A DNA stretch of 34,315 bases from Planctomycetota bacterium (lineage in GTDB: Bacteria; Planctomycetota; J058): contig JANJTH010000939.1 in assembly GCA_024711205.1 (NCBI GenBank), positions 1-34,315 on the forward strand. The letters are read 5' to 3'. The notes beneath the pieces are model-generated. The model saw only the letters and a list, made by a program, of their open reading frames with translations. It had not been told where the DNA came from and made no database searches. Below, in pieces: positions 2,378-5,770 of the stretch. A program made the translations under genes and the position numbers. The first letter of the stretch is position 1. Each line of letters opens with the position of its first letter.

Positions 2378-2610
2378 CCGGCCTGGACCCCACGGATCTT
2401 CGACGCGGCGCGGGGGACGCGAACGGACGCGAGGCAGGGCCTGCAGGCCGGGCGCACGGAGGTCCACGAGGCGCGCCGTCGCTGGGGCGAGGGCGACCGG
2501 CGGGAGGTGGTGCCTCCGCATTGGCCCCTTGCCCTGGCCTTTCTCCACGGGGCCCGCGTCGCTGGGTCTGCGCAGGCCACAAGCGCCGGGGACGGCGGCA
2601 CCGGAGAAGG
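2378..2610 (+). pseudogene. Decayed C-terminal remnant of a REP-associated tyrosine transposase
   Basis: Directly after the aconitase-class stop, and in the same frame, the plus strand encodes a stretch that matches the C terminus of the intact transposase at 4535-5770. Matching pieces in order are RQGLQAGRTEVHEARRRWGE (intact copy: IQGLQAWRKEVHETRRLWRE), then a counterpart of the VVFPHGTF segment reading VVPPHWPL, then FLHGARVAGS (intact copy: CFHGARVAKA), then a Gly/Asp-rich tail. There is no start codon, HUH motif or tyrosine domain, so it is a fragment of about 75 codons. It lies opposite in orientation to the intact gene. Its junction with the aconitase-class gene is only a few bases past the stop codon. 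Confidence 0.7.
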
Positions 2611-2790
2611 TCCCTCGCGCACCCGCACAGGTCGAACTCGGGCCCCGCTGCGGCGCCCCCTGTCGACGCCCTGGGCGGCCTCGCGCCGACCGCACTGCCC
2701 GGGACTCTCGCGGGCGAGAGCCCCCGCTCTGGAGGCGCACGGGGGCGCGCGCGATCGGGTGCACCGAGGAGGAAGGAGGTGGGAGTATCC
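2611..2790 (+). repeat. Degenerate, inverted copy of the transposase-linked 178-bp repeat
   Basis: Past the transposase remnant the similarity to the intact element appears to continue. GGGCCCCGCTGCGGCG, TGTCGACGCCCTGGG, GCCGACCGCACTGCCCGGGA and GGGGGCGCGCG follow in the same order as their counterparts on the minus strand downstream of the intact gene (4501 back to about 4390). The unit is therefore in inverse orientation to the copies at 3253, 3435 and 4323. The alignment was made by eye and has many mismatches, and the far end (about 2770-2800) is uncertain. Confidence 0.4.
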
Positions 2791-2825: not shown

Positions 2826-3203
2826 ATGACTATCGACGAAACGCTCATGCGCTTTGACGGTGGGCGCGCAAGACTCATGGAGTATCGCGCGACTCACTCG
2901 ACGTTCACGGTGCGCTTGACGAAGCCATCTGCGTCGAGCGTAGGCGCGTACGACGAAGTGAACGTCGTCTGCGTGGGTACCAACTGGATCGCAGCACATG
3001 TTCACTGGATGCCCTGCGAACTGCGCCTCAGCCGGACTTCGTCCGAGAGCCCATGGCCAGACAGCTGGCACCTGCAGGACGCCGCCGCCGGGTTCAGCCT
3101 GTTTTGCCTCTTCGTTCATGTATTCGAATGCACTTGGGGAGGGCCGAGCGATGACGAGCCACCCCGATCAGGAGCGACGCCCCGCGCTGATGAGCCGGGC
3201 TGA
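2826..3203 (+). CDS. Small hypothetical protein, possible island passenger gene
   Basis: A 125-residue open frame from ATG; AGGGG lies a few bases upstream. Not recognised. It contains a mixed region with several Trp and Cys residues (VNVVCVGTNW, HVHWMPCELRLS, FSLFCLFVHVFECTW) and ends in an Asp/Pro/Arg tail, DEPPRSGATP, that recurs in the gene at 3863. Codon use differs from the flanking chromosome: codons such as ACT, ATC, GAA, TTT, GTA, CAT, TCA and GGA are common where neighbours use G/C endings. That argues for recent acquisition rather than a shadow frame. An imperfect inverted repeat surrounds its stop codon. No function is proposed. Confidence 0.5.
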   Translation: MTIDETLMRFDGGRARLMEYRATHSTFTVRLTKPSASSVGAYDEVNVVCVGTNWIAAHVHWMPCELRLSRTSSESPWPDSWHLQDAAAGFSLFCLFVHVFECTWGGPSDDEPPRSGATPRADEPG

Positions 3204-3230
3204 AGGATCGGGCTCCTGCCGGGTGGGGCA
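3153..3230 (+). repeat. Shared gene-end element, copy 1, with imperfect inverted repeat
   Basis: The last 17 codons of the gene at 2826 (3153-3203) are nearly identical in their first 28 bases to the last codons of the gene at 3863 (4127-4177), beginning GACGAGCCACCCCGATC. Downstream bases fold back on it: CAGGAGC at 3169-3175 pairs with GCTCCTG at 3212-3218, and the outer GCCACCCCG pairs imperfectly with sequence to 3229. It may act as a terminator or be the end of a mobile unit into which both reading frames run. Confidence 0.55.
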
Positions 3231-3252
3231 ACACTCTATGTCCCTTCCAGTA

Positions 3253-3431
3253 TCATCACCCCTCCCAGGTTTGTGGCTCGTCCAGGCCCGCCGCAGGCCT
3301 CCGGCGGGCCTCTCGTCCCGCTTTCTGACCCCATTCGCGCCCCTACCCGCGCACATCCCTGTACGCGCCGCGAGCCCGGGCCACTCACGGGTCCCGGGCT
3401 GCTCGGTCGGCGGAGGTCGGCCAGCGCATCG
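3253..3431 (+). repeat. Transposase-linked repeat unit, copy 1 (179 bp)
   Basis: Copy 1 is identical to 4323-4501 except for two substitutions. It starts with TCATCACCCCTCCCAGGTTT, has an internal TTCTGACCCCATTCGCG, and then a hairpin-forming segment in which AGCCCGGGCC faces GGGTCCCGGGCT. It ends GTCGGCCAGCGCATCG. The same unit lies 33 bp beyond the stop codon of the transposase gene, which links the repeat to that enzyme. No gene is seen in 3204-3862 apart from these repeats. Open frames through it are by-products of GC content. Confidence 0.9.
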
Positions 3432-3434
3432 CAC

Positions 3435-3611
3435 CATCACCCCTCCCAGGTTTGTGGCAGGGCCCGCCCGCCGGGGTCGCCCTGCTGCCCGAGTGCGCCG
3501 CCTTCTGACCCCATTCGCGCCCCTACCCGCGCACATCCCCGTACGCGCCGCGAGCCCGAACCCCTCGCGGGTCCCGGGCTGCTCGGTCGGCGGAGGTCGG
3601 CCAGCGCATCG
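3435..3611 (+). repeat. Transposase-linked repeat unit, copy 2 (diverged middle)
   Basis: It begins with the same CATCACCCCTCCCAGGTTTG block and ends with the same GTCGGCCAGCGCATCG block as copies 1 and 3, with TTCTGACCCCATTCGCG in the same place. Two internal segments differ: about 45 bases after the first block, and the hairpin arm, which here reads AGCCCGAACCCCTCGCGGGT. The pattern of conserved ends and changed interior suggests an older copy or recombination between units. Confidence 0.85.
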
Positions 3612-3743
3612 GCGAGCCCGAACCCCTCGCGGGTTCCAGGCTGCACGGTGCCATCACCCCTTCGGCGAGCCCGAACCCCTCGCGGGTTCCGGGCTGCGCG
3701 GTGCCATCACCCCTCCCAGGTTTGTGGCAGGGCCCGCCCGCCA
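3611..3743 (+). repeat. Two short tandem partial repeat units
   Basis: Two consecutive short units begin GGCGAGCCCGAACCCCTCGC at 3611 and 3664. Each contains a hairpin in which AGCCCGAACCC faces GGGTTCCGGGCT (or its variant). The first stops after CATCACCCC at 3660; the second runs into a full CATCACCCCTCCCAGGTTTG block at 3705 and 15 more bases shared with copy 2. They look like hairpin-only derivatives of the 178-bp unit. Confidence 0.75.
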
Positions 3744-3862
3744 GTGTCTGAGTGTCCGCTCTGTCCACAGCCTTCAAGCGAAATGCGGGTTGGTACTCTA
3801 TGGCTCTTGCCCTGAGTGCCATCCGGGCGGCTACAACGTCATCACCCAGGGAGTGCAAACAA

Positions 3863-4177
3863 GTGGGCCCAAAAGATATCGCAGCGGCCGCTGAGAGCTT
3901 GAAGCCGGGGGAGCGCGCAGTCATAGAACTCGCCAAGTTCCCCGGCGACCTCTGCACAATCTTGTTTGACAGTTGGAGTCCGGCTAGCAGCAGCATCCAC
4001 TTTGCATACGTGGATGCCGAATCCGGAGCAGTCATTAGCCCGCACTTTGTTCTTCCATTGAGTGTAGTCTCGGCTCTAAGGAGGATTCAGGGGGGCGGGC
4101 CGTCGACCTCTGAAGGACCGGACGTAGACGAGCCACCCCGATCCGGAGCGACGCCGCCCTCGGCTGAGCCGGGGTGA
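3863..4177 (+). CDS. Small hypothetical protein, possible island passenger gene
   Basis: A 104-residue frame. The frame is open from 3752, but the GTG at 3863 has AGGGAG at 3848-3853, nine bases upstream, and earlier candidates have no ribosome site. Not recognised. The N-terminal half (KDIAAAAESLKPGERAVIEL) looks like a folded alpha/beta start, followed by a mixed region with FDSWSPASSSIHFAYVDAES. The C terminus ends DEPPRSGATP plus a few residues, as in the gene at 2826. Codon use is again low in G/C endings (ATA, AAA, TTT, AGT, CTA, GCA), unlike the surrounding chromosome. It is flanked on both sides by transposase-linked repeats, so it may be a passenger of the island. Confidence 0.5.
   Translation: MGPKDIAAAAESLKPGERAVIELAKFPGDLCTILFDSWSPASSSIHFAYVDAESGAVISPHFVLPLSVVSALRRIQGGGPSTSEGPDVDEPPRSGATPPSAEPG
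4127..4177 (+). repeat. Shared gene-end element, copy 2
   Basis: The final codons of the gene at 3863 repeat the gene-end element of 3153-3203, with GACGAGCCACCCCGATC and GGAGCGACGCC identical. CACCCCG can pair with CGGGGTG at 4170-4176, so the fold is shorter than in copy 1. The repeat covers the coding end and the stop region rather than the gene bodies, which are unrelated. Confidence 0.55.
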
Positions 4178-4290
4178 CGGAGCAGGCGCTCGCCGAGCGG
4201 GGGGCGCGCGTTGTCACGTGCGCGTTGTGGAGGAGCCGGTCCATGGCGTCGATGGTACGGCCGTGCTCGAAGGAGGCCCGTCGTCGCCGG

Positions 4291-4346
4291 CGTCATCACC
4301 CCTCCCAGGTTTGTGTCACCCGTCATCACCCCTCCCAGGTTTGTGG
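4291..4346 (+). repeat. Tandem duplication of the repeat terminus
   Basis: CGTCATCACCCCTCCCAGGT occurs twice with a period of 30 bp (4291 and 4321). The second copy begins repeat unit 3. A single extra terminus without a body is what repeated insertion or slippage at one target would leave. The rest of 4178-4534 holds only repeat unit 3 and short spacers. Confidence 0.8.
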
Positions 4347-4501
4347 CTCGTCCAGGCCCGCCGTAGGCCTCCAGCGGGCCTCTCGTCCCGCTTTCTGACC
4401 CCATTCGCGCCCCTACCCGCGCACATCCCTGTACGCGCCGCGAGCCCGGGCCACTCACGGGTCCCGGGCTGCTCGGTCGGCGGAGGTCGGCCAGCGCATC
4501 G
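4323..4501 (+). repeat. Transposase-linked repeat unit, copy 3, at the 3' end of the transposase gene
   Basis: This unit differs from copy 1 by only two bases in 179. It lies 33 bp beyond the stop codon of the minus-strand transposase gene, so the gene plus this repeat probably form the parental unit, while copies at 3253 and 3435 are gene-less derivatives. The near-identity of copies 1 and 3 indicates recent duplication. Confidence 0.9.
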
Positions 4502-4534
4502 ACGACGAGCGTCGCAGCGGGGCCGGGGCCCAGG

Positions 4535-5770
4535 TCAGGGCGGCGCGCGCGGGGGGCTGCCGTCTCCGCGGCCGCCGTCGTCGCCCGCTTCCGTGCTCTC
4601 CCCGGCCTTCGCGACGCGCGCCCCGTGGAAGCAGGGCAGGCCGAAGGTGCCATGCGGGAACACGACCTTGCGGTTGCCCTCGCGCCAGAGGCGGCGGGTC
4701 TCGTGGACCTCCTTGCGCCAGGCCTGCAGGCCCTGGATCGCCTCGATCCGGGCCTCTCGGTCCTTGCAGGCGATCCGCGGGTTCCGGGCGAAGGCAGGGA
4801 AGCAGTCGCCGACGCTCCGCCGCGGATCCTCGAGCAGGATCTTCTCGAGCCCGATCGGGGCCCGCAGGCCTGCGAGACGGCGCTCCTCGCGGGCCTTCGC
4901 GAGCCCCTCGTCGAGGAGACGCTGGAAGTGCGCCCGGACCTCGGCCAGGCTCATATGCTCGTAGCCGGGCGGCGGCACGGGCCGGACCACGACCCGGTCG
5001 GGCAGCTTCGAGCGGACCCGCTCGGGCCGCGGCGCCCGCTCCTTGCGCTTGGCGGCCCGGCGGCGCTTGGCCTTCCGCCGCTCGCGCGCCACGTCGAGCT
5101 GCTGCTGCCGCCGCTTCGACCGCCCGCGCCGCGCGTCCTGCTCGCGCTCCGCCCGGCGCCGACGCGCGTCCTCCTCGTGCGCCTCGCGCTCCTCGCGACG
5201 CAGCTCCTCGAGCCGGGCCTCCTCCGCGCTGATCGAGCCCTCGCGGACACGCTTCGGCCGCTTGCCCCCGAAGAACGCCGACTTCGGCTTGTCGAAGGCG
5301 AGCTCGGTCCCCCAGTGCTCGGGGAGGACCTTCACCCCGGGCCAGTCCTCGAGCCGGTCGACGATCCCGTCCTTCACGACCTGGACCCAGGTGTAGACGA
5401 GCTGCTGCTCGAGGGCGGCGCGATCGTGGACCTCGACGTTGCCGTAGCTGCCCTGCTGGAAGAGCGCGCCGCCGCGCCCGAAGCGGGCGTTGATCGCGCG
5501 CGCGCTGAGCCCGAAGAGGTGCTGGTGGAAGCGGGGCAGCGAGGAGTGCTCGCCCGCGCCGGGCAGGTCGGTGCAGTTCTCGTGCACGTGCGTCGTGTGC
5601 TGCATGAAGGCGTGGAGCCGCACGCCCGGGTTCTGCTCGGCCGCGCGGCCGAGCGCGTAGCCGAGGATCTGCACGACCTCCTCGTGCGGGTTGAGGTACG
5701 GGCGTCGCTCGACCGTCCGCCGCGTGACGGCGTGCGTCCTCCTCGACTCCAACCGGCGCGGCAGCGACAT
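4535..5770 (-). CDS. REP-associated tyrosine transposase (RAYT, Y1_Tnp/IS200-like superfamily)
   Basis: A 411-residue single-strand DNA transposase-like enzyme. ATG at 5770 is preferred over the upstream GTG at 5821 because the family fold begins at MSLPRR. Residues 1-140 are the Y1 domain. THVHENC gives the metal-binding HUH pair His61 and His63, and YTWVQVVKDGIV, with Tyr126 as the likely nucleophile, matches the YIHLNPVRAGLV-type helix of RAYTs. Residues about 165-265 are an extremely Arg/Lys/Glu-rich, probably helical region, unusual for RAYTs, which are often 150-250 residues. The C-terminal part carries IQGLQAWRKEVHETRRLW and VVFPHGTF, also kept in the remnant at 2378, so it is probably functional. 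It is transcribed toward the repeat array. Confidence 0.85.
   Translation of the reverse strand: MSLPRRLESRRTHAVTRRTVERRPYLNPHEEVVQILGYALGRAAEQNPGVRLHAFMQHTTHVHENCTDLPGAGEHSSLPRFHQHLFGLSARAINARFGRGGALFQQGSYGNVEVHDRAALEQQLVYTWVQVVKDGIVDRLEDWPGVKVLPEHWGTELAFDKPKSAFFGGKRPKRVREGSISAEEARLEELRREEREAHEEDARRRRAEREQDARRGRSKRRQQQLDVARERRKAKRRRAAKRKERAPRPERVRSKLPDRVVVRPVPPPGYEHMSLAEVRAHFQRLLDEGLAKAREERRLAGLRAPIGLEKILLEDPRRSVGDCFPAFARNPRIACKDREARIEAIQGLQAWRKEVHETRRLWREGNRKVVFPHGTFGLPCFHGARVAKAGESTEAGDDGGRGDGSPPRAPP

Follow-up and report, generated by a model that had tools for sequence, protein, structure and literature searches.

A repeated DNA block at the 3′ ends of unrelated small genes beside a RAYT-like transposase in a Planctomycetota draft genome

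Two neighbouring small genes in a Planctomycetota draft genome end in closely similar DNA, which we found to be part of a repeated block of about 100–165 bp. The block is present in five copies, has a constant left edge, is alike at the DNA level and lies beside RAYT-like transposase genes and RHS/immunity genes. The gene-end fusion is real and unusual and looks like a recombination scar. We consider it moderately likely that the two genes are orphan immunity-type genes lying in an RHS/RAYT rearrangement zone, which were fused in frame to a shared 3′-flank block by recombination. The stretch of DNA analysed here (hereafter the window, 34,315 nucleotides) is an entire contig, C420, of a 6.77 Mb draft assembly of 962 contigs that is 86% complete. 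The features surrounding the two genes are listed in Table 1.

Table 1. Annotated features of the window around genes 1 and 2.
Feature	Positions	Strand	Basis
C-terminal remnant of a second, degenerate RAYT-like transposase gene	2381..2569	+	tblastn-type match to residues 328-388 of the window RAYT, E 1e-10
Decayed copy, in inverse orientation, of the RAYT element 3′ flank	2582..2762	.	Reverse match to window 4461-4744 and to the RAYT 3′ ends of L040, L041 and L039
Gene 1 body, low GC (60%), immunity-type by context	2826..3131	+	ORF; no match in Pfam, NCBIfam or PADLOC
Tail block copy E, giving gene 1 its last 23 residues and TGA (3201-3203)	3132..3228	+	
D1 copy, equal to the RAYT element 3′ end	3253..3431	+	99% to 4323-4501; same unit behind the RAYT genes of C592, C719 and C636
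Second D1 copy, diverged	3433..3615	+	86% to 3254-3431
Partial D1 pieces: two 53-nt tandem units and a motif copy	3602..3748	+	
Gene 2 body, low GC (58%), immunity-type by context	3863..4105	+	ORF; PepSY match below cut-off
Tail block copy A, giving gene 2 its last 23 residues and TGA (4175-4177)	4106..4224	+	
D1 of the complete RAYT element, forming its 3′ end	4323..4501	+	Partial motif copy at 4295
RAYT-like Y1 transposase gene, convergent to genes 1 and 2	4535..5770	-	HVH motif, candidate catalytic Tyr; NF047646 E 3.9e-6, below cut-off

Gene 1 (2826-3203, ATG start, 125 aa) and gene 2 (3863-4177, GTG start, 104 aa) have bodies that are dissimilar to each other and have a GC content of 58–60%, compared with 73% for the window. 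Their final 17 codons (3153-3203 and 4127-4177) are identical at 44 of 51 bases, and the ungapped match between the two gene ends spans 89 nt (3140-3228 and 4114-4202) at 78% identity (69/89), continuing for 25 nt beyond both stops. Dinucleotide shuffles of both regions gave a mean of 41 and a maximum of 46 matching bases (n = 300), and in the 30 bases 5′ of the block the two genes agree at five positions. The first-pass annotation had described unrelated bodies with near-identical ends, and these figures confirm that description. It had also noted a foldback across the first stop: an imperfect foldback is indeed present, but composition alone explains its strength (z −0.37, with 59 of 200 shuffles folding equally well). 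The foldbacks of copies A and B were likewise within composition expectation, that of copy C was slightly stronger (z −1.47), and the range across the tested copies was −0.2 to −1.5.

A whole-block search of the assembly placed copies A and E in the window and copies B, C and D on a second contig (C636); a strict sequence pattern recovered only A and E from the same genome. On both contigs the block adjoins RAYT-like (Y1) transposase genes. The left edge is the same in each of the five copies, at ACTTCTGAAGG or a closely similar sequence, and the 30 bases preceding this point agree at the chance level of 4–9 positions in most pairs, the exceptions being B–C (15/30) and B–D (12/30). Three different genes are ended by the block in one frame (copies A, E and D), while copies B and C end none. 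The gene ended by copy D is membrane-protein-like, uses the same frame as genes 1 and 2 and immediately follows the region coding for the C-terminal tip of an RHS protein (1966 aa), the gene for which passes TIGR03696. The tip itself (L039 7914-8780) carries an HEFAH motif, is without a Pfam match and is perhaps a metallopeptidase toxin. Copy B, 204 nt beyond copy D, stands in a frame that is open back to the stop of D through a repeat, and copy C is situated about 100 nt past the stop of a Transposase_31 (Rpn-type nuclease) gene (L039 3115-4287), which itself lies between a RAYT gene and copy C. The suggestion that the reading frames of genes 1 and 2 continue into a repeat, which supplies their stop, is thus supported by the five copies and by a third unrelated gene, behind RHS, ending in the same frame. 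The associated expectation that further copies would each end a different small gene held only in part: three more copies exist on C636, but copy D alone among them ends a gene, and none was found in relatives.

Copy D was found to be chimeric, switching after 63 nt to a different block of 43 nt (98% identity, one mismatch). On a third contig, C719, this 43-nt block (L041 4429-4471) begins 3 nt past the stop of an Imm21 gene (L041 3841-4425; E 3e-17) that adjoins another RAYT. The block therefore lies outside the Imm21 gene on C719 but gives gene D its stop on C636; gene ends in RAYT/RHS zones are thus patched from short shared blocks. A search of 148 relatives for the tail block returned, outside its own genome, only short matches at chance level, so that there is no before/after pair for the joining. 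Rfam gave no match.

The copies resemble one another as DNA and not as protein, because changes fall at all codon positions, amino-acid replacements equal or exceed silent codon changes in every copy pair and the similarity passes the stop (21/24 past the stop for A–B). Changes at codon positions 1/2/3 numbered 2/2/3 for A–B, 5/5/4 for A–C and 2/6/8 for A–E, with no consistent third-position bias. These patterns bear directly on the idea that the tail is a functional C-terminal peptide, such as an interaction or degradation tag, selected on several immunity proteins. All three genes do use the same frame and frame-shifting indels are absent from four copies (A, B, C and E), as such a tag would require, but neither tail shows regular structure in models (that of gene 1 being of low confidence) and two of the five copies end no gene. 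We regard a peptide tag as very improbable and dropped it on the balance of replacements over silent changes, the past-stop similarity and the two copies without a gene. Chance could also account for the one frame of the three fusions (about 0.1, given the first), a point that counts against the explanation preferred below. In copies A, B and D each of the two alternative frames is closed within roughly 25 bases of the left edge; joining in either of them would thus add few residues to a gene and would escape notice.

The constant left edge also suits a small mobile element in its own right, either MITE-like or derived from part of an insertion sequence, inserting at or just behind gene ends. 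Copies B and C have about 165 bp in common, as an element of this kind might, and part of the right half of copy B (51 nt) recurs at C636 13953-14003 within an ORF that by eye resembles a DDE-type transposase. This ORF, however, has no Pfam match, the right edges of the block vary between copies, neither terminal inverted repeats nor target duplications were seen by eye, and the block is confined to two contigs of this genome with none in relatives. Independent mobility thus appears unlikely; of the earlier proposal that a mobile sequence supplies the stop, the part that stands is a repeated block that gives codons and stop. The DDE-type transposase-like fragment on C636 (L039 5954-6060, GRSWARLASGPHTVNGFLNDCTHLILDRDPLYTQ), the first 51 nt of which recur in the right half of copy B, has short partial matches in relatives.

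The DNA between and around genes 1 and 2 is dominated by remains of RAYT-like elements. The transposase encoded in the window scores 26.8 bits against NF047646, below the cut-off of 80, and its translation contains, as read by eye, an HVH motif and a candidate VYTW...DWPG stretch; 21 RAYT-like matches were identified in this genome. Repeats of a type that we call D1, which contain inverted repeats, occur in multiple copies 3′ of RAYT genes on four contigs (C420, C592, C719 and C636), where the same 180–260 nt follow the transposase gene. No D1 motif was found in the genome_contigs database when its own genome was left out. The repeats between genes 1 and 2 are copies of this RAYT element 3′ end, and a second, decayed RAYT 3′ end (2381-2762) faces the complete one (4535-5770); with a complete RAYT and a decayed RAYT fragment in the window, the two genes sit between two convergent RAYT 3′ ends. 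The tandem arrangement of the genes and the 99% identity of the D1 copies behind them might indicate duplication of a whole gene whose body later diverged or was replaced, leaving only the tail alike. The tails, however, are 78% identical and the D1 copies 99%, which argues against a single recent duplication of gene, tail and repeat, and we discarded that variant on this ground. As the bodies share no similarity and the block is also found without a gene, we consider any origin by whole-gene duplication improbable.

Genes 1 and 2 gave no match above cut-off in Pfam, NCBIfam or PADLOC, and neither matched an immunity family; a PepSY match to gene 2 fell below cut-off. Among 392 genomes of the phylum they were found in their own genome only, apart from one marginal match to gene 1, which had no relatives in the genome_contigs database; gene 2 was not found in plasmids. 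A structural model of gene 2, built with no alignment, predicted with moderate confidence a helix-strands-helix body followed by an unstructured tail and had no PDB match at E 0.001, and the corresponding model of gene 1 was too poor to use. The window contains no RHS gene, and the two genes are not directly behind an RHS gene or toxin tip. With no family match and no relatives above chance, the immunity label comes from context, and on that footing they are most likely orphan immunity-type genes. They form a tandem pair of small, low-GC genes without a toxin, with a putative immunity role.

A different reading of the common gene end is that of integron-like cassettes, in which the tail would be an attC-like site before which a recombinase gathers genes. 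The gene-end position, the imperfect foldback and the presence of two genes in one array are all in keeping with it. There is, however, no tyrosine recombinase (PF00589) on C420 or C636. Four are encoded on other contigs of the genome, the two strongest of which resemble XerC/XerD, and none of the four reaches the TIGR02249 integron-integrase cut-off, a result that applies to the domain stretches scanned and to an assembly that is 86% complete. By eye no attC R″/R′ core pair was seen, the foldback lies within composition, two of the five copies follow no cassette gene and no larger arrays of tail-block genes exist in the genome. An integron-like origin is extremely improbable, and attC sites were rejected as contradicted by the recombinase and copy evidence. 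The gene-capture system put forward in the first-pass annotation is not supported, on the same points, and the companion check for a recombinase gene near larger arrays found no such arrays and, in the domain stretches scanned, no tyrosine recombinase on the two contigs with the block.

Fusion by recombination in an RHS/RAYT zone, the explanation that we prefer, could have proceeded as follows. The block would be part of the DNA that flanks RHS toxin/immunity loci on their 3′ side, where RAYT-like elements and copies of their 3′ ends are also found. Recombination there may have fused the 3′ ends of genes 1 and 2 in frame with the block, a copy of which would since then have provided each gene with its last 23 residues and stop. 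The joining probably accompanied turnover of toxin/immunity cassettes, with old cassettes displaced and the block serving as homology or junction, rather than the action of a dedicated enzyme. The joints may have arisen by homologous or illegitimate recombination, as has been proposed for CDI/Rhs orphans (PMC3150448) and for immunity arrays of Vibrio (PMC5361080).

The company that RAYT genes keep was surveyed in this genome and six related genomes, which were not selected for RHS. The 3′ flank of the RAYT gene was lower in GC than the 5′ flank in 17 of the 21 cases that allowed the comparison (Wilcoxon p 0.0007), the copies without lower 3′-side GC in the stretch measured being L039, L144, L153 and L164. 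By hand count, seven of the 30 copies for which 4 kb or more of 3′ flank was available (L039, L136, L137, L140, L145, L147 and L159) have an RHS gene, always convergent, no more than 4 kb from the RAYT 3′ end, against none on the 5′ side, within the same distance, among the 21 copies with 5′ flanks of 4 kb or more. In one relative an Imm5 gene lies behind a RAYT (E 1.4e-6), and RAYT/RHS loci also carry several small low-GC genes without an assigned function. In a relative, the low-GC flank on the 3′ side of a RAYT contains a gene with a PIN_8 domain (L138 5778-7217). A limited literature search for ‘REP-associated tyrosine transposase’ together with ‘Rhs’ found no paper pairing the two, which is weak evidence of novelty. 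The association of RAYT with RHS may prove more useful than the tail fusion. It is conceivable, and in our estimation quite unlikely, that the RAYT-like Y1 transposase is a working partner of RHS toxin/immunity loci in this bacterial family, such that the repeats at its 3′ end would mark the receiving end, single-strand recombination there would import or reshuffle cassettes, and gene-end blocks of the DEPPRSGATP type would be the standard joints for new immunity genes.

For the mechanism by which RHS and related loci acquire toxin/immunity cassettes, a genome family with 3′ ends of RHS loci that repeatedly face a Y1 transposase, together with blocks fused to gene ends, offers concrete junctions for study. 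The fusion also illustrates that, in a GC-rich genome, unrelated genes can receive a tail and a stop from a repeat, and such tails should not be taken for protein domains.

Elements of this arrangement are familiar from several systems. The Rhs elements of E. coli consist of an RHS gene, a variable tip and downstream ORFs, followed by the H-rpt insertion sequence. The order of RHS, tip, ORFs and an insertion-sequence-like unit is comparable here, except that the unit is a RAYT-like Y1 element convergent to RHS. In RAYT/REP systems an HUH Y1 transposase is accompanied by multi-copy end repeats that contain hairpins, and the elements described here resemble them in their repeats and in a candidate HUH motif; in contrast, the transposase described here falls below the NF047646 cut-off and has a long C-terminal extension. 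The likeness to integrons is limited to the placing of unrelated genes before a common end. Behind cdiA and rhs, orphan toxin/immunity modules are remnant cassettes, joined at short conserved sequences with IS remnants nearby, and immunity genes build up downstream of the main toxin gene (PMC3150448). The conserved junction of those orphans lies 5′ of the toxin tip (VENN), whereas here a shared block closes immunity-type genes at their 3′ end and gives them codons and a stop. Polyimmunity loci contain tandem unrelated immunity genes without a toxin, some of them beside recombinase genes (PMC3482391), and differ from the present locus, which has two genes only, no known immunity family and a Y1 transposase as neighbour. 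Orphan immunity arrays of Vibrio result from sequential effector displacement, which leaves distinct immunity genes arrayed in tandem on the 3′ side of the toxin locus; they have been explained by homologous or homology-facilitated illegitimate recombination, and a parallel to integrons without an integrase has been drawn (PMC5361080). Those arrays lie within T6SS clusters (PMC5361080), whereas the genes described here are accompanied by RAYT 3′-end repeats and are fused to a common tail.
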